In this document: in pieces, positions 32,941 to 45,561 of the stretch
Layout: each line of letters starts with the position of its first letter
Numbering within the stretch: the first letter of the stretch is position 1
Origin: Armatimonadetes bacterium DC
GTDB lineage: Bacteria > Armatimonadota > Fimbriimonadia > Fimbriimonadales > GBS-DC
Direction: 5' to 3'
Length of the DNA stretch: 64,000 nt
Assembly: GCA_001442985.1 (NCBI GenBank)
Contig: LDYB01000025.1
Span: forward strand, 124,001 to 188,000
The notes under the pieces: model-generated
Databases searched by the model: none
Told to the model about the DNA's origin: nothing
Seen by the model: the letters and a program-made list of their open reading frames with translations, nothing else
Translations under genes and position numbers: made by a program

Positions 32941-35900
32941 TTAGCGTGTGCTGACGAGCGGTACAACCGCGCGTGCCACCTGACCCTCCTCGCTAATTGC
33001 TGTGATTTCCACGAGATACTGCCCCGGCGGCAGAGCGCGCCCTGAGTTGTCGCGTCCGTCCCAGACCAGCTGGTGGGTGCCCCCACTGCGCGACGCCTGC
33101 GCCTCCAGCGTGCGCACGACCTGACCTGCCGTGCGAATTTGCACCTGAACACGCGCCTCGCCTGTGAGGGTGAAGCTGATCTGATAGCGCCCACCCTGTC
33201 CGCGTCCGCCCTGAACCGCAGGGTTGAGGATTCGCAGGAAGGCGCGTGCGCTTACAGGCTCAATACGGAACTGGTACCTGCCTCCTTCAGGCGGCGCGGT
33301 GAAGGTGTAGCGGGGTGCGCCGCGCAGGGGGATGCGCTTGCCAGTCTGCTCGTCAATCAGGGCGAGGTTCGTGTTGTGCGGCAGGTGGTGCGCCCCGCGT
33401 GCGGTGAGGGTGATGACCTGGGCGCTTCCAGCGGGGGGCACGATGACCTCTACCTGCCAGCGGGGCGCGCGCGTGCCTGCTTCCCTGATGTCCGCACTGA
33501 AGGCGCCTTCAGGTCGCACGATGCGTACCGTTGGAGCGCCCTGCTGGTCAGGGGCGTCGGGTGGCGTGCTGGCACGCAGCGCGCGTCCCACGCCGAGAAC
33601 CGCCTCCGATTGCCCGTTCGCGCCGATCGCCTGAAGCGCCAGCGTCCAGCCGTTGGGTTTGGGCGTCAGGCTCCGGCTTCGGCTGGGCGGGTTGAACACC
33701 AGCGTACACGCCTCGCGCGCCAGAATCCAGTAGGCTTGCCACGGCTCCAGCGCGCCCTCCGCATTCGGCAGCAGCTGGGGGTCGTAAACAAGGTGATACC
33801 GCCCGCGCGTGGGGTCGTTCGGGTCCTGGCGCCATGTCCACAGGTAGTCTTCCAGCCAGCCTGCGGCGCGCGCCTCGCGCAAACTCAGCGTCGTGCCGTT
33901 GCGCTGAACCTGAATCGCGTCCAGATTCCAGATAACAGGCAGCAGGTAGGGGTTCGCAATCAGGTTCCAGCCGGGCTGGAGGTCAATCGTGAAAGTGCCG
34001 TTGACGGGTTCGCCCGTGAGGTCCAGGCGCGTGGTGGTATTGACTTTCAGGAAATAGCCCTCACCGGGGCGCAAGGTGGTAACCGACTCGTAGTTGCCGC
34101 TCTGGGCGTTCCAGCGCATCAGGCGTGCCGTGTTCAGCCCCAGCCTGTCGGGCGTGGCGTTCGGGATATTCAGGTTCAGAGCGAAGTCGGTCATGCCGAT
34201 GACTTCGGGCGTGATTTCGTTCATGGCGTGGAAGGTCTGTGCGGCGCTCCATGCACCCCATGTGCCCAGAGAATCCTGTGCGCGCGCCCGCCATGTAATC
34301 TGCCCCGCGTTCAGCGGACTTGCTTCGGGGATGGGGTAGGGCACAACGGCTCCGCTGGGCACCGAGTCGGTGGTGTAGCGCCATGTGTGTGAGCCGTCGC
34401 TCAGCTCGATCTCGATCAGCACGGCGTCGCCTTCGGGGTCCTCGGCGCGCACACGCAGGATGGGCGTGCGCGAGGTGAAGGCGTTCGGCGCAGGGCTAAT
34501 CAGGGTGGGAGCGTTCGGGGCGCGGTTGATGCTGAAACTGCGCGGCTGGCTCCAGTCGCTCTGGGCGTTGCGGGCGTCTATTGCGCGCGCCTGCCATTCA
34601 TAGTCGCCCGACCCCAGCGCCTGAGTGTTCGGCACGGTAAAGTTCACGGTTTGACCGCTGGCGACCGCGCCCGTCTGGAACTCGGCAGACCAGCCGTCCG
34701 TGCGGCTGATTCGGATCACGGCGTGAACCTGCTCGTTATCGGGGTCAGAGAGTTGCAGTCGGAAAGTGGGTGTGGGGGTTGTGAGGGTAGCGCCGTCTGC
34801 AGGCTCCAGCAAGGTGGGCGGGCTGGGCGGCTGGTTGCTCTGGGCGACAGTGAACTGCCACTGGTCGGTCCAGTCGCTCCAGTCGCCGACGCTATCGCGG
34901 GCGCGGGCACGCCACAGATAGGTTCCTTCCACCAGTGGCTCCGAGTCGGGGATGGTGAAACTCACCTCGCTGCCCGAGCTGACCTCTACGGTCTGATAGA
35001 GCCGCTGGGCGCCCAGAGCGCTGACAATCTCAATCTCGGCGCGGACAGTGTTGCTGTCGGGGTCGCTCAGGCGCAGGCGGAAGGTGGGCGTGGCGCCTGT
35101 TGTGGAGCCGTTCGAGGGGCTTATGCGCACGGGTATATCGGGCGGGCGGTTCGCTCCCGCGACAGTGAAGGTGCGATTGGCTGTCCAGTCGCTTCGAGCG
35201 CCGTAGGCGTCTTCGGCGCGGGTGCGCCACTGGTAGGTGCCCGGTGGCAAAGCGTCCGCCTCAGGCACGGTGAACGTCACTTCCTGCCCGTTCGCCACAA
35301 GGTCTGTCTCGTAGGCGTGGAGCGTGGTGGAACCCTGCAGAATCTCGATATGCGCTTTCACGCGGTCGCCGTCGGGGTCGTTCAGGCGCAATCGGAAGGT
35401 GGGTGTGGCGCTCACCTGCGCGTTATCGCCCGGCTCCAGAATGGTGGGCTTGCCCGGCGCGCTATTGCTCACCGTGAAGGTGCGCCATTCGCTGGGCGCA
35501 CTCGTGGCGCCGTGAACATCTTCTGCGCGGGCGCGCCACTGGTATGCGCCCGGCGTCAGCGGCTGATTGGCTGGAATGCTCACCGACACCGAACCGCCCG
35601 CTGTCCAGCCTGTTTGGAGCAGACGGCTCTGGTTCTGAGAATCGACAATCTCAATCGTGGCACGAACCTGATCCCCATCGGGGTCGCTCAGTTGCACTTC
35701 AAAGGTAGGCGTGCGGGAAACGCTCGCGCCACTAACAGGGTTGATCAGCGTCGGGATGTTGGGCGGCTGGTTGGGCGGTCCTGCGGTGTAGAGCATCACC
35801 AGCCCGTCCGTGCCGCCAGAGAGGGTGTATGCGCCGTCGGCGGAGAGCGCGAGCGCGCGCGCCTCGCCCGCATGCACGCTGGTCTGACGCACTAAATCGC

Positions 35901-37587
35901 CCGTGCTGGCATCCCACAGGCGCAGGGCGCCGCTGTAGTCGCTGGCGATGATTTGCGCTCCGTCGGGCGTATAAGCCACCGCCGCCATAATGAACCCATC
36001 CCCCGTGAGCGTGCGGAAGGGGGTGTAGGTCGCCAGATCCCAGATTCGCACAGTGCCGTCGGTGCTACAGGAGGCGAGATGGCTCCCCGTGGGGCGGAAG
36101 GCGAGTCCCGTGATCGATTCGTTGTGGGCGTTAATCGTTGTCAGCAAGGTTCCATCCAGATTCCAGATTCGAATCGCACCGCTGGAGTCGCCTGTAGCGA
36201 GCTGGGTGCCGTCGGGCGAGAAGGCGACGGCGTTCACCGTGCCCGTATGCCCCCCAAAGGTGCGCAGGAGCGTGCCGCCCGGCAGTTGCCAGAGCTTCGC
36301 CGTGCCATCAAAACTGGCGGTGGCGAGCAGTTGCCCGTTCGGCGAGAACGCGAGCGCCAGAACCTCTTCACTGTGGGCAGACCATGTGGCGAGGGTAGCG
36401 CCTGTGGGCATCGCGCGCAGGCTGACCGTGCCCGTAAAATCGCCAATCGCCGCGAGCGTGCCGTCGGGCGAGGCGGCGAGGGTCAACACAGGGTTCGCAT
36501 GCGGTGCAAGGTTGGGTCCTGGATTGCCGTTGCTGGCGTTCCACAGGCGCAGAATCCCCTGCTCATCCCCCGAAAGCGCGTACCCCCCACTGACAAACGC
36601 CACACCCCGAACGGCGCCTGCGTGTCCCTGAATCGTGGCGGTCGTGTTGCCTGTGGAAATCTGCCAGAAGCGCGCCGTGCGGTCTTCGGCTGTCGAAACT
36701 AACTGGGTGCTGCCGAGAACCCCCACGCCCCGTATGATGCCCGTGTGCCCATTGAAAGTGCGCACTTCCGTGCCGCTTATGGGGTCCCATTGCCGAATCG
36801 TGGCGTCTGCGCTGGCGGAAAAGAGCGCGGCGCTATCGGCAGAAAAAGCAAGCGCGTTAACCGAGTCGGTGTGCGCCGTCAGCGTGCGCTCCAGCACCCA
36901 TGTGCCCGCTGTCCACAGGCGCACGCGCGTATCGCTGCTGCCGCTTGCCAGCCACGCGCCGTTGGGCGACCACACCAGCGCGTTAATCGCATCCCAGTGC
37001 GCGCCCGTCTCGGTGTGAACGAGAGAGCCGTCGGCGGGGTTCCAGATTCGCAGTTCGCCAATCCAGTCGCCGCTTGCCAGATACGCCCCGTTCGGCGAGA
37101 AAGCAAGCGCCGAGACCGCGCTCCCGTGCCCTGTGAGCGTGCGCAACGGCGCGCCGTTTGTGGCGTTCCAGAGAACGATACGCTGGTTCGTGCCCCCGGT
37201 GGCAATTGTGCTTCCGTCGGGCGCGAAGGCAAGGCTAATCTCCGTGCCCGAAGCATCGACGCTCCAGACCAGCGTGCCTGTGTCCACATTCCACAGGCGC
37301 AGGTTGCCAAAATCGTCCAGTGAGGCGAGCCGCTGGCTGTTGGGCGCAAACGCCAGCGCCTGAACCGAACCCGCGTGCCCCGACAGCAACCGTACCAGCT
37401 GGCGGTCGGAGACCCGATAGAGCGCAATCTGCCCGCCTTCGGCGGCGAGCGCCAGCAGCTGCCCGTTCGGCGAAAGCGCCATCGCCCGACCCGAAAGCAA
37501 CGGCTGACGCCAGATAATCCCACTTGACTGCGCCAGCACGACACTCACCAAGCCACACAATCCCAGCAAAAGAGCCAGCCTTCGCAT
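32941..37587 (-). CDS. Giant exported WD40-repeat protein with Ig-like repeats and FlgD-like C-terminus
   Basis: A 1548-residue secreted protein. After the signal peptide (LALLLGLCGLVSVVLAQ) come about 14 WD40 repeats (~30-600), each with the GH...VxxLAFSPDG...LASG...IRxW pattern, enough for two seven-bladed propellers. Residues ~610-1130 hold five ~100-residue Ig/FnIII-like modules with the recurring P...P-T-F-R-L-R-L-S-D-P-D...YQWRARA pattern. A spacer domain follows, then a final FlgD-Ig-like repeat (LVWDGRDNSGRALPPGQYLVE). The ATG at 37587 is 9 nt after GATAAT. It diverges from the RNase HI-restriction fusion across 56 bp. A surface scaffold or adhesion role is inferred. Confidence 0.9.
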   Translation of the reverse strand: MRRLALLLGLCGLVSVVLAQSSGIIWRQPLLSGRAMALSPNGQLLALAAEGGQIALYRVSDRQLVRLLSGHAGSVQALAFAPNSQRLASLDDFGNLRLWNVDTGTLVWSVDASGTEISLAFAPDGSTIATGGTNQRIVLWNATNGAPLRTLTGHGSAVSALAFSPNGAYLASGDWIGELRIWNPADGSLVHTETGAHWDAINALVWSPNGAWLASGSSDTRVRLWTAGTWVLERTLTAHTDSVNALAFSADSAALFSASADATIRQWDPISGTEVRTFNGHTGIIRGVGVLGSTQLVSTAEDRTARFWQISTGNTTATIQGHAGAVRGVAFVSGGYALSGDEQGILRLWNASNGNPGPNLAPHANPVLTLAASPDGTLAAIGDFTGTVSLRAMPTGATLATWSAHSEEVLALAFSPNGQLLATASFDGTAKLWQLPGGTLLRTFGGHTGTVNAVAFSPDGTQLATGDSSGAIRIWNLDGTLLTTINAHNESITGLAFRPTGSHLASCSTDGTVRIWDLATYTPFRTLTGDGFIMAAVAYTPDGAQIIASDYSGALRLWDASTGDLVRQTSVHAGEARALALSADGAYTLSGGTDGLVMLYTAGPPNQPPNIPTLINPVSGASVSRTPTFEVQLSDPDGDQVRATIEIVDSQNQSRLLQTGWTAGGSVSVSIPANQPLTPGAYQWRARAEDVHGATSAPSEWRTFTVSNSAPGKPTILEPGDNAQVSATPTFRLRLNDPDGDRVKAHIEILQGSTTLHAYETDLVANGQEVTFTVPEADALPPGTYQWRTRAEDAYGARSDWTANRTFTVAGANRPPDIPVRISPSNGSTTGATPTFRLRLSDPDSNTVRAEIEIVSALGAQRLYQTVEVSSGSEVSFTIPDSEPLVEGTYLWRARARDSVGDWSDWTDQWQFTVAQSNQPPSPPTLLEPADGATLTTPTPTFRLQLSDPDNEQVHAVIRISRTDGWSAEFQTGAVASGQTVNFTVPNTQALGSGDYEWQARAIDARNAQSDWSQPRSFSINRAPNAPTLISPAPNAFTSRTPILRVRAEDPEGDAVLIEIELSDGSHTWRYTTDSVPSGAVVPYPIPEASPLNAGQITWRARAQDSLGTWGAWSAAQTFHAMNEITPEVIGMTDFALNLNIPNATPDRLGLNTARLMRWNAQSGNYESVTTLRPGEGYFLKVNTTTRLDLTGEPVNGTFTIDLQPGWNLIANPYLLPVIWNLDAIQVQRNGTTLSLREARAAGWLEDYLWTWRQDPNDPTRGRYHLVYDPQLLPNAEGALEPWQAYWILAREACTLVFNPPSRSRSLTPKPNGWTLALQAIGANGQSEAVLGVGRALRASTPPDAPDQQGAPTVRIVRPEGAFSADIREAGTRAPRWQVEVIVPPAGSAQVITLTARGAHHLPHNTNLALIDEQTGKRIPLRGAPRYTFTAPPEGGRYQFRIEPVSARAFLRILNPAVQGGRGQGGRYQISFTLTGEARVQVQIRTAGQVVRTLEAQASRSGGTHQLVWDGRDNSGRALPPGQYLVEITAISEEGQVARAVVPLVSTR

Positions 37588-37596
37588 GCCATGCTG

Positions 37597-37602
37597 ATTA
37601 TC
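37597..37602 (-). promoter_or_regulatory. -10 box GATAAT of the giant WD40 gene, leaderless
   Basis: CCGATAAT on the minus strand, 9 nt before the ATG at 37587. Confidence 0.45.
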
Positions 37603-37629
37603 GGCAGGTGCCCCCGTGTTTTTAATGGG

Positions 37630-37635
37630 GTATGC
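37630..37635 (+). promoter_or_regulatory. -10 box TATGCT of the RNase HI-restriction fusion, leaderless
   Basis: GGGGTATGCT, 8 nt before the ATG at 37644. An in-frame ATG at 37632 lies inside the box and cannot be the start if this promoter is used. Confidence 0.5.
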
Positions 37636-37643
37636 TATCACGC

Positions 37644-40600
37644 ATGCCAAAGCGTGCAATCCTCTACACCGATGGCGCGTCGTTCGGGAACCCCGGACCT
37701 GCGGGGATTGGCGTTGTGCTGACCGATGAGTCGGGGAATGTGCTGGAGCGCCTTTCCGAGCCGATTGGCTACGCCACCAACAACGAGGCGGAATATCGCG
37801 CCCTGATTCGCGGGCTGGAGCGTGCGGTGGCGCTGGGCGTGGAAGAGCTCACATGGTACGCCGACAGCGAGCTGGTGGTGCGCCAGTGGACGGGGCAATA
37901 TCGGGTGAAGCAGCCCCATCTGGCGCAATTACTGGCTCAGGCGCGCACGCTGGCGCAAAAAATCCCGCGCTTTGTGGCACGCCACACCCTGCGCGGCGGC
38001 AACACCGAAGCAGACGCGCTCGCCAAACAGGGCGCCCGAATGGCGGAAAAACAGCAGACCCCAAACGCCCCCTCTCAGAACCCGCAGGCTTCGGCACGCA
38101 CGAGCGCCACACCGACGCCCCATCAAGCGGTGGAGCGCTACCTTCACCAGATTCGCACGGTAGCGCAATCGCCCCACACCACGAACGAGCTGTCCTATCA
38201 CGGCGCACTGCAAACGCTTTTGCAGGCACTCCTCCCCCAGTTGCAGATCGTTCACGAGCCGACACGCACCGTCGCCGGGCGACCCGATTTCGTGCTACTG
38301 CAAAACGGCACGCCCGTCGGCTATGTGGAAGCCGAGGCGTATGGAGCCGACCTGGACAACCTGCCCCCGCACGCCAGAGCGCAAAACGAGGCGTTTCAAC
38401 AGCATCTGGAAAACTTCCTGCTGACCAGCTTTCTGGAGTTTCGGCTCTATCGCGCGGGGCAAGAGGTGATGCGCGCCCGACTGCCTCAGCCCCCGCCACA
38501 GGGCAAAATCAGCCTGCCCGCCCAGAACACGCAGGAACTGATAGACCTGCTTCGGGCGTTTGGGAGCCACTTGCCTGCGCCTGTCGCCGACGCCCGTACC
38601 TTAGCCCAGCATCTGGCGCAACGCGCACGCCTGCTGAAAACCATCGTGGAGCAGAGCCTGCACGCGCAACTCAAGCAACCTCCCGACGCCCCGCTGGAAC
38701 TGCGCAACCTCTATCGCGCCCTGCAAAGCGCGCTGCTGCCCGACCTCGCCCCCAGCGAGTTCGCCGACCTCTATGCGCAAACCATCGCCTACGGACTGTT
38801 CGCCGCCCGATGCTACGCCCCGCAGGCACGCTTCACACGCCACGACGCCGCGCGAGTCATCCCCGACACCATCCCCTTCCTGAAACGCCTGCTCGGCACG
38901 CTCACCATGCACGAACTGGAACCCGAACTGGCTTGGCTAATGGACGACCTCGCCAGCCTGCTGGCACGCGCCGACATCCACGCCATCCTGCAGGACTTCG
39001 GCAGGCGCGAGGGACGCGAAGACCCCGTGGTGCATTTCTATGAAGACTTCTTAACCGCCTACGACCCCAACCAGCGCGAGGTGCGCGGCGTCTACTACAC
39101 GCCCGAACCCGTCGTGCAGTTCATCGTGCGGGCGGTGGACGCCGTGCTACGCCACGAGTTCGGCTTCACCCAGGGACTGATGGAGCCAAACGCGCTGATT
39201 TTAGACCCCGCCTGCGGCACGGGCAGCTTTCTGTATGAAATTGTGCATCAGGTGCATGCGCAGGTGGTGCGCTCGCTGGGGGCAGGGCAGTGGGCAGACT
39301 ACGCCCGCGAGCATCTGGTGCCACGCCTGTTCGGTTTTGAGTTGCTGATGGCGCCCTACACGATTGCCCACCTCAAACTCACGCTGGAGTTGCACCATCT
39401 GGGCGCGCCGCCCACCGAACGCCTGCGAATCTATCTCACAAACGCGCTGGACCCCGCTGTCAAGCCTGCCGAACTGCTGCTGGGCGAATTTATTACCCGC
39501 GAAGCCAGCGAGGCTGCCGAAGTCAAACGCGACAAGCCCATCCTCGTCGTGCTGGGCAACCCCCCCTACAGCGGACACTCCGCCAATCGGAGCGTAATAG
39601 AGATTCGCGAAAAAGTCAACGGGCGCACGCGCACACGCAAACAGCTCACATGGATTGGCAAACTGGTGGAGGAATACAAGCAGGTAAACGGACAGCCCCT
39701 GGAAGAGAAAAACCCCAAATGGCTGCAGGACGATTATGTGAAGTTTCTGCGCTTCGCAGAGTGGCGCATTCAGCAGACGGGGCAGGGCGTCGTGGCGTTC
39801 ATCACCAACCACGCCTATCTGGACAACCCCACCTTTCGGGGTATGCGGGCGCACCTGTTGAAGAATTTCCAGAAACTTTATATTGTGAACTTGCACGGCA
39901 ACGCGCGGCGCAAAGAGCGCGCCCCCGACGGAAACCCCGATGAGAATGTGTTCGACATCCAGCAGGGCGTCGCGATTCTGATTGCAATTCGCCACCCCGA
40001 GGCGGAGCCGACCGACGCGCCCGTGCGCTACTACGATGTGTGGGGTTCACGCGAGGCGAAATATCAGTTTCTGCGCGAGGCGACGCTGGACGCCATCCCC
40101 TGGACGCCGCTGACCCCCCGCGCCCCGATGTATCTTTTCGTGCCGCAGGATACCGCGCGGGAAGAAGAGTATCTGCAAGGCTGGCGCATCGCCGACATCT
40201 TCCCCGTGCATAGCGTGGGGATTGTAACGGCGCGTGACTCGCTGACCATCCACCGCACGCCTGAGGCAGTGTGGAAGACGGTGTGTGAGTTTGTTTCGCT
40301 GGAGCCTGAAACGGCGCGGGAGCGGTTTCGGCTGGGCAAGGATGTGCGCGACTGGTCGGTTGCACGCGCCCAGCAAGACCTGCGCGACGCCGGCGTGCCC
40401 AACGAGAGCGCGAAGCAGTATATCGTGCCGATCCTCTATCGCCCCTTTGATGTGCGCTATACCTTCTACACGGGCAGGTCGCGCGGCTTTCACTGCATGC
40501 CCCGCCCCGAAGTGATGCGCCACCTGCTCACAGGGGAGAATCTGGCGCTGGTGGTGGGGCGAGCAGGGTCGGCAACGGGCGATGAGGAGTGGAATATCGT

Positions 40601-41276
40601 GTTTGTCGCCGCCCATCCTGTGGACCTGAACATCTTTCGGCGTGGCGGCGGCGAGGTGTTCCCGCTTCGCCTGCTTGCAGAAACGCGCCGTGCCCAGGAA
40701 GTGCTTTTCTCCGATTCGGGACATCGTGTGAACCTGCGGAAAGAGTTTATGGATGCGCTGGCTCGTGTGCTGGGCAGGTCGCCTGCGCCCGAGGCGGTGC
40801 TGGGCTATCTTTATGCGGTTCTGCACAGTCCCACCTATCGGACGCGCTATGCGGAGTTTCTCAAGCGCGACTTCCCGCGCGTGCCCCTGCCGCCCGACGC
40901 CGCGACTTTTGACGCGCTGGCGCAACACGGCATGGCGCTTATGGACCTCCACCTGCTGCGCGACCCCCGCCTGCAAGAACCTCTGTGCAAATATCCCGTC
41001 GGGGGCGACCACCGCGTGGAGCGCGTCGAGTATAACGCCGCCTCCCAGCGCGTGTGGGTTAACGCCAGCCAGTATTTTGAACCCGTGCCGCCAGAAGTGT
41101 GGGCGTTTCGGGTGGGCGGCTATCAAGTGTGTGAAAAGTGGCTGCAGGAGCGCAAAGGCACCCCGCTCTCGCTGGACGAACGCCTGACCTATCAGAAAAT
41201 GGTGACCGCGATTGCGCACACGCTTACCGCGCAACAGCAGATAGACACCCTCGTGCGCCAGGCGTGGGGGTGGTGA
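37644..41276 (+). CDS. RNase HI fused to a type IIG/ISP-like restriction endonuclease-methyltransferase
   Basis: A single 1210-residue frame. Residues 1-130 are a complete RNase HI domain (LYTDGASFGNPGPAG, NNEAEYRAL, WYADSELVV, GGNTEADALAKQ) with D10, E50, D74, D124 and H114 all present. A ~30-residue Gln/Pro/Ala linker leads to a PD-(D/E)xK-like domain (GRPDFVL, D215; VGYVEAEAYGADLD, E229-A-E231, where relatives read EAK). A helical connector precedes an N6-adenine methyltransferase with VRGVYYTPEPVVQFIV, DPACGTGSFLYE (D521) and NPPYSG (N639), then a C-terminal target-recognition region (~850-1210). No helicase motifs are seen. Restriction plus self-protecting methylation is known for the family; the RNase HI fusion is unfamiliar to me. 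The gene stands alone. Confidence 0.9.
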   Translation: MPKRAILYTDGASFGNPGPAGIGVVLTDESGNVLERLSEPIGYATNNEAEYRALIRGLERAVALGVEELTWYADSELVVRQWTGQYRVKQPHLAQLLAQARTLAQKIPRFVARHTLRGGNTEADALAKQGARMAEKQQTPNAPSQNPQASARTSATPTPHQAVERYLHQIRTVAQSPHTTNELSYHGALQTLLQALLPQLQIVHEPTRTVAGRPDFVLLQNGTPVGYVEAEAYGADLDNLPPHARAQNEAFQQHLENFLLTSFLEFRLYRAGQEVMRARLPQPPPQGKISLPAQNTQELIDLLRAFGSHLPAPVADARTLAQHLAQRARLLKTIVEQSLHAQLKQPPDAPLELRNLYRALQSALLPDLAPSEFADLYAQTIAYGLFAARCYAPQARFTRHDAARVIPDTIPFLKRLLGTLTMHELEPELAWLMDDLASLLARADIHAILQDFGRREGREDPVVHFYEDFLTAYDPNQREVRGVYYTPEPVVQFIVRAVDAVLRHEFGFTQGLMEPNALILDPACGTGSFLYEIVHQVHAQVVRSLGAGQWADYAREHLVPRLFGFELLMAPYTIAHLKLTLELHHLGAPPTERLRIYLTNALDPAVKPAELLLGEFITREASEAAEVKRDKPILVVLGNPPYSGHSANRSVIEIREKVNGRTRTRKQLTWIGKLVEEYKQVNGQPLEEKNPKWLQDDYVKFLRFAEWRIQQTGQGVVAFITNHAYLDNPTFRGMRAHLLKNFQKLYIVNLHGNARRKERAPDGNPDENVFDIQQGVAILIAIRHPEAEPTDAPVRYYDVWGSREAKYQFLREATLDAIPWTPLTPRAPMYLFVPQDTAREEEYLQGWRIADIFPVHSVGIVTARDSLTIHRTPEAVWKTVCEFVSLEPETARERFRLGKDVRDWSVARAQQDLRDAGVPNESAKQYIVPILYRPFDVRYTFYTGRSRGFHCMPRPEVMRHLLTGENLALVVGRAGSATGDEEWNIVFVAAHPVDLNIFRRGGGEVFPLRLLAETRRAQEVLFSDSGHRVNLRKEFMDALARVLGRSPAPEAVLGYLYAVLHSPTYRTRYAEFLKRDFPRVPLPPDAATFDALAQHGMALMDLHLLRDPRLQEPLCKYPVGGDHRVERVEYNAASQRVWVNASQYFEPVPPEVWAFRVGGYQVCEKWLQERKGTPLSLDERLTYQKMVTAIAHTLTAQQQIDTLVRQAWGW

Positions 41277-41376
41277 GGAAAGAGGAGGTTGTGGGTGTTG
41301 ATTTTTGGAAAGTTCGCCGGCGCAAACGCTAACGCCTGGTGAAACCGTTCCTCGCGTTGCCCTCCGAAGCTGGGGT

Positions 41377-42462
41377 CTACACATTCAACGACTCCAGCTT
41401 CTTCGCCTGCTCTTCGGCAATCAGGGCGTCAATAAAGGGCTGGATGTCGCCATCCAGAACGCCTTCCAGATCGTGCAGGGTCAGCCCGATACGGTGATCT
41501 GTAACACGGCGGTCGGGGAAGTTATAGGTGCGAATCTTTTCACTGCGTTCGCCTGTGCCAATCTGGGTGCGGCGCTGCTGGTCGCGTTCCTGACGGAGGC
41601 GTTCCTGTTCCATCTCGTAAAGGCGCGTGCGCAGGATTCGCATCGCCCGCTCGCGGTTCTGCAACTGAGAGCGCTCATCCTGACAGGAAACGGTCAGCCC
41701 TGTGGGCTTATGAATGATACGCACGGCGGTCTCGTTTTTCTGCATATGCTGTCCACCCGGACCTGACGAGCGGAAGGTCTCGATAATCAAATCCTGCGGG
41801 TTAATCTGGATATCCACCTCTTCGGCTTCGGGTAGCACGGCGACGGTGGCGGTGGAGGTGTGGATGCGCCCGCCGCTTTCGGTAACGGGCACGCGCTGCA
41901 CGCGATGCACGCCCGACTCGTGCTTGAGCTGGCTGTATGCGCCCTCGCCCTGAATGCTGAACACCACATATTTGTAGCCGCCCAGATCGCTCGGCTCGGC
42001 GTCCAGCACCTCGTATTTCCAGCCCTTGCGCTCGGCGAAGCGGGTATACATGCGGAATAGATCCGCGGCAAAGAGCGCCGCCTCTTCGCCCCCCGCGGCG
42101 GGGCGGATTTCAATAATTACATTTTTCTCGTCGTTGGGGTCGCGTGGCAGCAGTTTCAGCGTCAGAATGCGCCCATACTGCTCCAGTTGCTTGAGGGCGT
42201 TTTCGCGCTCCTCGCGGGCTAACGCCACGAGGTCGGGGTCGTCGCTCTGTTCAATCAGCTCTTCCGCCTCGTGAAGCGTTTTTTCTGCCTGAAAGTAGCG
42301 GGTGTAGAGCTCTTTGAGTTCACTCAGCTCGGTGTGTTGCTTGCCGAGCCGCTGGAGCGCGCTGGGGTCCGACAGCACTTCGGGGTCCGCCAGCTGCGCC
42401 TCAATCTCGGGCAGTTTCGCGAGGGTCTCCTCCAGTCGCGTGCGCAATTTGTCAGGAAGCAT
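41377..42462 (-). CDS. prfA: Peptide chain release factor 1
   Basis: A 361-residue class I release factor recognising UAA/UAG. The peptide anticodon is PVT in RVPVTESGGRIHTSTATVAV, identifying RF1 rather than RF2 (SPF), and the catalytic GGQ lies in RSSGPGGQHMQKNETAVRI. The usual RF1 neighbour prmC is absent. The ATG at 42462 follows TACAAT by 8 nt with no Shine-Dalgarno. Confidence 0.97.
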   Translation of the reverse strand: MLPDKLRTRLEETLAKLPEIEAQLADPEVLSDPSALQRLGKQHTELSELKELYTRYFQAEKTLHEAEELIEQSDDPDLVALAREERENALKQLEQYGRILTLKLLPRDPNDEKNVIIEIRPAAGGEEAALFAADLFRMYTRFAERKGWKYEVLDAEPSDLGGYKYVVFSIQGEGAYSQLKHESGVHRVQRVPVTESGGRIHTSTATVAVLPEAEEVDIQINPQDLIIETFRSSGPGGQHMQKNETAVRIIHKPTGLTVSCQDERSQLQNRERAMRILRTRLYEMEQERLRQERDQQRRTQIGTGERSEKIRTYNFPDRRVTDHRIGLTLHDLEGVLDGDIQPFIDALIAEEQAKKLESLNV

Positions 42463-44824: not shown

Positions 44825-45172
44825 TTATGCCGATGGCGAAGCGTTCGCGGCGTACTTGACCACCTCCGCATCCCACCACACCACCAGCCCTTCCTGCACC
44901 ATCTCATCGACCACCAAGAGGAAATGCTCGATTTTCTCCTGAGAATCTACAATCTCAATCACAATTGGCAGGTCTTCCGAGAGGCGGAGGATGTTGGCGG
45001 TGTGGATGCGGCTGTTGGCGCCGTAGCCTGCTATCCCGCGAAGGATGGTACCGCCCGCCAGCCCCATCTCCCGCGCCTTGAGCAGAATCGCCATATAGAG
45101 CGGCTGCCCATGCCACTTATCCGATTCGCCGATATAAATGCGCAAAACGCGCGCTTTGCCTGTGATTTTCAT
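44825..45172 (-). CDS. DUF190 protein, PII-like partner of CrcB
   Basis: A 115-residue DUF190 protein with the ferredoxin-like/PII-like fold: KARVLRIYIGESDKWHGQPL, AILLKAREMGLAGGTILRGI, GYGANSRIHTANILRLSEDL and PIVIEIVDSQEKIEHFL. DUF190 genes commonly accompany crcB, and the protein probably modulates fluoride export. The ATG at 45172 overlaps the crcB stop as ATGA. The C-terminal tail is short. Confidence 0.92.
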   Translation of the reverse strand: MKITGKARVLRIYIGESDKWHGQPLYMAILLKAREMGLAGGTILRGIAGYGANSRIHTANILRLSEDLPIVIEIVDSQEKIEHFLLVVDEMVQEGLVVWWDAEVVKYAANASPSA

Positions 45173-45561
45173 GGTTCTACACCTCCAATCAGCCAGCGTG
45201 CGACCACCACGCCCAGAAACACCGCAATCAAACCCAGCACCAGACTGCCGAACAGGTTCAGACACGCCTTGAGCCAGGAACCTTCCAGAATCAGGCGCAG
45301 GCTCTCATACTCATAGGTGGAATAGGTGGTGAACGAACCGATGAAGCCGATGGCAATCAGCTGCCGCCATTCAGGCGACCAGGGGAAATGGAGCGCGAGC
45401 GTCATAAACAGCCCCAGCAAGAAGGAGCCTGAGACATTGATGAGCATCGTCTCGATAGGGAAGAGCAGCCCGAAACGCCCGGCAATCCATCCCCCCAGCC
45501 AGTAGCGCAGATTCGCGCCCAGAAAGCCACCGAGACCTACAATCAGCACCGTTTTCCACAT
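45169..45561 (-). CDS. crcB: Fluoride ion channel CrcB/Fluc
   Basis: A 130-residue four-helix fluoride channel subunit that works as a dual-topology dimer. Key segments are GGFLGANLRYWLGGWI at the N-terminus, TMLINVSGSFLLGLFM with the pore asparagine, and FIGSFTTYSTYEYESLRLI containing the Phe box and the central Na+-site threonines. It starts immediately after the histidine kinase stop (45562). No crcB-type fluoride riboswitch is recognisable upstream of it or of the operon. Confidence 0.95.
   Translation of the reverse strand: MWKTVLIVGLGGFLGANLRYWLGGWIAGRFGLLFPIETMLINVSGSFLLGLFMTLALHFPWSPEWRQLIAIGFIGSFTTYSTYEYESLRLILEGSWLKACLNLFGSLVLGLIAVFLGVVVARWLIGGVEP

Follow-up and report, generated by a model that had tools for sequence, protein, structure and literature searches.

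A single-frame fusion of RNase HI to a Type IIG restriction-modification enzyme in an Armatimonadetes genome

The locus and the integrity of its frame

The window, that is, the whole 64-kb stretch of DNA analyzed here, carries on its forward strand a single frame, from 37644 to 41276, that translates through 1,210 codons without a stop, just as an earlier sequence-only reading had maintained. The frame encodes, in this order, an RNase HI domain (residues 1–135), a linker of 24 residues, and a complete Type IIG enzyme (residues 160–1210); for its start there is an alternative in-frame ATG upstream, at 37632. The host assembly comprises 2.85 Mb in 26 contigs, and the join between the two enzymes is internal to a contig of 235 kb, away from its edges. 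No convincing repeats or target-site duplications were found at the fusion point. The fusion of RNase HI and Type IIG enzyme in one frame is confirmed as a real observation.

A sequence or assembly error, by which the stop codon of rnhA or a frameshift was lost from what are truly two adjacent genes, is in our judgment improbable. The fusion is known from one genome of the genus, in assembly-level sequence, and its junction is short and of low complexity, all of which would suit such an error, but the join lies well inside its contig with no repeat across it, and the flanking domains are both intact and in the same frame. Moreover, of the two other frames of the linker, one runs without a stop through all the sequence read, and the second has only a stop that falls inside the restriction part, so that a single frame error in the linker would not simply split the genes.

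The divergent neighbor (32941–37659, reverse strand) is a 1,572-codon frame of WD40 β-propeller repeats, matched by many Pfam propeller models with eukaryotic names. Further along, at 44825–45561 on the reverse strand, a DUF190 protein overlaps a CrcB-like membrane protein, a pair that, from its sequence, looks like a fluoride export system. Between 28413 and 50253, the real genes are shadowed by numerous long open frames on the opposite strand (e.g., 33073–34392 and 40047–41384); these are to be expected in GC-rich DNA and should not be read as genes.

Two complete enzymes and the linker between them

The RNase HI domain occupies residues 1–135 (37644–38048, forward strand), as judged from Pfam, PDB matches, and catalytic residues. 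At residues 3–131, Pfam returned both RVT_3 (E = 1e-23, residues 9–129) and RNase_H (1.8e-13), and in the PDB this half matched RNase HI 3u3g (9e-27) and Rv2228c (4e-25). The catalytic codons all lie on the forward strand, D10 at 37671–37673, E50 at 37791–37793, and D74 at 37863–37865, followed on the C-terminal side by H114 at 37983–37985 and D124 at 38013–38015. The four acidic residues do not vary in an alignment of 10 RNase HI proteins, and the fused protein also has H114. The half thus combines the RNase H fold with the D10/E50/D74/D124 set and the histidine that mark an RNase HI, and the domain is complete, as had been proposed.

In a tree of 36 proteins, the fused domain clustered with stand-alone RNase HI proteins of the same family (support 97/89), its nearest relatives being about 60% identical, and in sister genomes RNase HI stands alone. 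Besides the fused copy, the host's RNase H complement consists of a divergent RNase HI paralogue (45%) and an RNase HII, and nothing else. Given the tree grouping and this short complement, the fused domain is probably the regular RNase HI of the host, of native family. The paralogue (G000:C14:173841-174185; loci L002 and L045) forms, with a copy in a related genome, G004 (locus L040), a long-branched clade of its own (99/94). The G004 copy has Gly in place of the first catalytic Asp and so looks degenerate.

The linker, at about residues 136–159 (38049–38120, forward strand), is of low complexity, rich in Gln, Pro, Ala, Ser, and Thr, and falls outside both domain matches. It has no homologue in relatives of the restriction enzyme, while comparable low-complexity tails were found on sister RNase HI proteins. 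Derivation of the linker from the region upstream of the closest restriction orthologue was considered and rejected, since no nucleotide match was found in that region.

Just ahead of the linker is an in-frame ATG, M133 (38040–38042, forward strand), a possible internal start for a separate restriction-modification protein of 1,078 amino acids. We therefore weighed the reading that two proteins come from the one frame, with the restriction enzyme made mainly by initiation at this ATG and the fusion largely nominal. The Shine-Dalgarno-like duplex at M133 (−3.1 kcal/mol) resembles the corresponding start duplexes of relatives that stand alone (−3.8 and −2.4 kcal/mol), but it is also near the background median of −2.5 kcal/mol, and ribosomes starting from the ATG at M1, where the duplex reaches −6.0 kcal/mol, would meet no stop before 41276. 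On balance, we hold this reading to be unlikely, though not negligible.

Residues 160–1210 (38121–41276, forward strand) make up a complete solitary Type IIG enzyme of the DrdV-like kind, as indicated by PADLOC, by orthologues, and by purifying selection. The PADLOC model REase_MTase_IIG aligned at residues 164–1193 to profile positions 3–1061 of 1,096 (E = 6e-268), a match to nearly the whole profile, which indicates that, beyond the linker, the protein is a single, complete Type IIG enzyme of the ordinary kind. The single chain of nuclease, methylase, and target-recognition domain that had been proposed to follow the linker is thereby borne out. The nuclease had, however, been sought at residues 500–720, a region that turns out to be methylase; its PD-(D/E)XK core lies at about residues 160–282 (38121–38490, forward strand), with the motif G212-x-P-D215...E229-x-E231. 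In a 49-sequence alignment, D215 and E229 are invariant, and the third residue is K in 43 sequences and E in 6 (E231 here and five others). BamHI is an active enzyme that carries Glu at this position. The nuclease domain alone was folded with AlphaFold2 from the same alignment, giving a model with a pLDDT of 92.5, and its top eight Foldseek matches were all DrdV chains (best 2e-8). The half thus has a PD-(D/E)XK active site of the kind expected of Type IIG enzymes, with E231 as its third residue.

Downstream of the nuclease, Pfam N6_Mtase matched residues 460–676. Methylase motif I, DPACGTG (residues 521–527; 39204–39224, forward strand), is nearly invariant in the alignment of relatives, and motif IV, NPPY (residues 639–642; 39558–39569, forward strand), which is of the N6-adenine type, is invariant in 21 sequences. 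The target-recognition domain, of Type ISP class, spans residues 851–1184 (40194–41195, forward strand; Pfam Type_ISP_C, 8e-88) and is the most diverged part relative to the closest orthologue (71% amino acid identity). Nuclease, gamma-class N6-adenine methylase, and target-recognition domain are accordingly present in one chain, as in Type IIG enzymes, and DNA cleavage and adenine methylation are the activities predicted for this half. The C-terminal specificity domain is that of Type ISP, but neither Pfam nor PADLOC matched a helicase, and the superfamily 2 helicase-like motor of that type is missing; in its absence, the half is not a Type ISP enzyme in the strict sense. Of the original label "type IIG/ISP-like," the Type IIG part and the ISP-class recognition domain therefore hold, and a strict Type ISP assignment does not. 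The same genome also carries a stand-alone Type IIG relative (G000:C19:131472-134579; L046:6952-10098) that is 48% identical and has the usual nuclease Lys. Beside it lie two genes in tandem, which we take to be Uma2-like.

Among characterized enzymes, the single-chain Type IIG/IIL enzyme DrdV (PDB 7lo5, 7lvv) is matched by a profile of 21 relatives over nearly its full length (5e-94 for 7lo5). Like residues 160–1210, it has the order nuclease, helical region, methylase, recognition domain, the same nuclease fold, and no helicase; unlike the fused protein, it has no RNase HI domain, overall identity is low, and the Glu at the third nuclease residue of the fused protein is a further difference. 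The Thermus Type IIC/IIG enzymes TaqII and TaqIII are chains of about 1,100 amino acids with PD-(D/E)XK, helical, and gamma-methylase parts and a recognition domain similar to that of Type ISP, whose cleavage mechanism the TaqII-type enzymes lack (PMC5587805). We liken them to the fused protein by description, not by sequence, and no RNase HI is described for them. The Type ISP enzymes LlaBIII and LlaGI are homologous in methylase and recognition domain, and the profile match is limited to those parts; in the PDB comparison, the match to LlaBIII (7e-39) starts only at its residue 836. In Type ISP enzymes, nuclease and coupler are separated by a helicase-like motor of superfamily 2 (PMC4666363), and it is this motor that is absent from the fused protein.

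Distribution of the fusion and selection on its parts

Residues 1–1210 were matched in this genome only, in searches of 61 near relatives and then of 291 genomes of the same phylum. In the related genome G004, an orthologue of the restriction half that is 80% identical has its own ATG where the fused protein has H160, is flanked by a ribonucleotide reductase-like gene and an MlaE-like gene, and has no RNase HI; another orthologue, in genome G185 and 76% identical, is likewise without it. Twenty homologues begin at or near residue 160, so that the restriction half corresponds to the full length of a stand-alone family. Among the matches listed, full-length restriction matches in other genomes start near residues 117–200, and the remaining N-terminal matches in relatives, in the same-phylum search, are RNase HI alone. 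RNase HI-type matches occurred in 141 of the 291 same-phylum genomes, where the next longest frame among the matches listed has 557 codons. None of the plasmid matches, again among those listed, begins before residue 147, and phage sequences gave no match covering 80% of the query.

We also assembled homologues from the relatives together with 80 loci from many phyla and viral contigs, which gave 141 distinct frames with the N-terminal part. In none of these was RNase HI found in frame or nearby, the loci having a median length of 8.4 kb, and across the same-phylum genomes the linkage was seen in 1 of 291. The same architecture, which the sequence-only reading had proposed to look for in relatives, is thus not repeated among the 141. 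N-terminal extensions in other homologues were considered as candidates; four of the long frames checked carry no Pfam domain and are probably mere open frames. In the relatives, the order of the RNase HI, restriction, and prfA genes is not kept, and an ancestral empty site was not found. The two closest restriction homologues sit in different taxonomic families, and the restriction family is patchy among relatives, a spread that fits what is expected of a mobile gene.

Compared pairwise with its two orthologues, the restriction half gave dN/dS values of 0.26 and 0.22. Within it, the methylase had the lowest value (0.18) and the recognition domain the highest (0.37). For the RNase HI half, dN/dS was about 0.2–0.3 against sister genes, near saturation. 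These sequence comparisons indicate that both parts have been functional, but the values do not speak to selection on the fused form. Most of the time that pairwise values cover precedes the fusion. The fused form may itself be under some selection, as the host has no other close copy of this RNase HI.

Origin and meaning of the fusion

We put at about three in four the probability that, in this lineage, a native housekeeping rnhA was joined into a single reading frame with a solitary Type IIG gene that moves horizontally, the domains keeping their own jobs. In the simplest history, which takes one change, the restriction gene would have landed just downstream of rnhA, codirectional and in phase, and loss of the rnhA stop codon would have made one frame; the order of these events is conjecture. 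A spacer this short would often be free of stops where the DNA is GC-rich. The product would be a single polypeptide that does both ancestral jobs, its halves joined by a flexible linker, and the two activities are likely to be independent of each other. Its N-terminal part would act on the RNA of RNA:DNA hybrids, the ordinary work of RNase HI. Like DrdV and TaqII, its C-terminal part would recognize an asymmetric DNA site, methylate one adenine on self DNA, and cleave DNA that lacks the modification at a set distance from the site. The ATG at M133 may yield some restriction enzyme without RNase HI.

A different proposal, made from the sequence at the outset, was that the locus encodes an undescribed defense system, an integrated enzyme whose RNase HI part would steer or license restriction at R-loops, at the primers of replication, or at the products of reverse transcription, with adenine methylation marking self. 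Both catalytic sites are indeed intact in a single polypeptide with a flexible linker, and R-loop-directed restriction has been proposed elsewhere, for the pPIWI-RE/DinG systems (PMC3702460). Nevertheless, the linkage is conserved in none of the homologues, an outcome that had been named at the outset as refuting the proposal, the two orthologues lack RNase HI while the RNase HI of sister genomes stands alone, the restriction part is complete without RNase HI, and RNase HI is by phylogeny the host's ordinary gene. The neighbors, moreover, are the WD40-repeat protein, prfA, and a MacB-type permease, with no accessory defense genes alongside. For action on R-loops, primers, or reverse transcripts, we found no positive support, and we consider the integrated enzyme very improbable. 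The more specific scheme, in which an active RNase HI would tether a Type IIG nuclease that methylates self to RNA:DNA hybrids, or license it there, and so focus restriction on transcribed or replicating foreign DNA, appears to us highly improbable. The locus seems to represent a gene fusion that happened once, and not a new defense system.

A close precedent is the RNase HI–CobC protein MSMEG_4305. With Rv2228c and SCO2299, it shares the arrangement of an N-terminal RNase HI, a variable linker, and an unrelated enzyme, and in vivo its domains are functionally dissociated, or largely independent, the fusion having been judged by its authors to be fixed by drift (PMC7466739). The RNase HI–CobC fusions differ in having a phosphatase as partner and in being conserved across Actinomycetales, whereas the RNase HI–Type IIG fusion was encountered a single time. 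Restriction endonucleases naturally fused to regulatory proteins, with an extra domain that is dually functional, are also on record (PMC3850674); there the addition is a regulatory protein rather than RNase HI.

No described fusion of RNase HI with a restriction enzyme turned up in the literature searched, in agreement with the initial remark that none to a restriction-methylase was known, and with none among about 140 homologues either, this one has apparently been noticed here for the first time. The case also shows that two domains unexpectedly found together in a single genome count for little as evidence of a new system. What the locus does offer is a clean natural case of how a mobile restriction gene can be bound physically to one of the host's core genes. 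Should the fused copy be the host's main RNase HI, a cell that lost the entire gene would be left without that RNase HI, and the tie could, speculatively, stabilize the restriction system.
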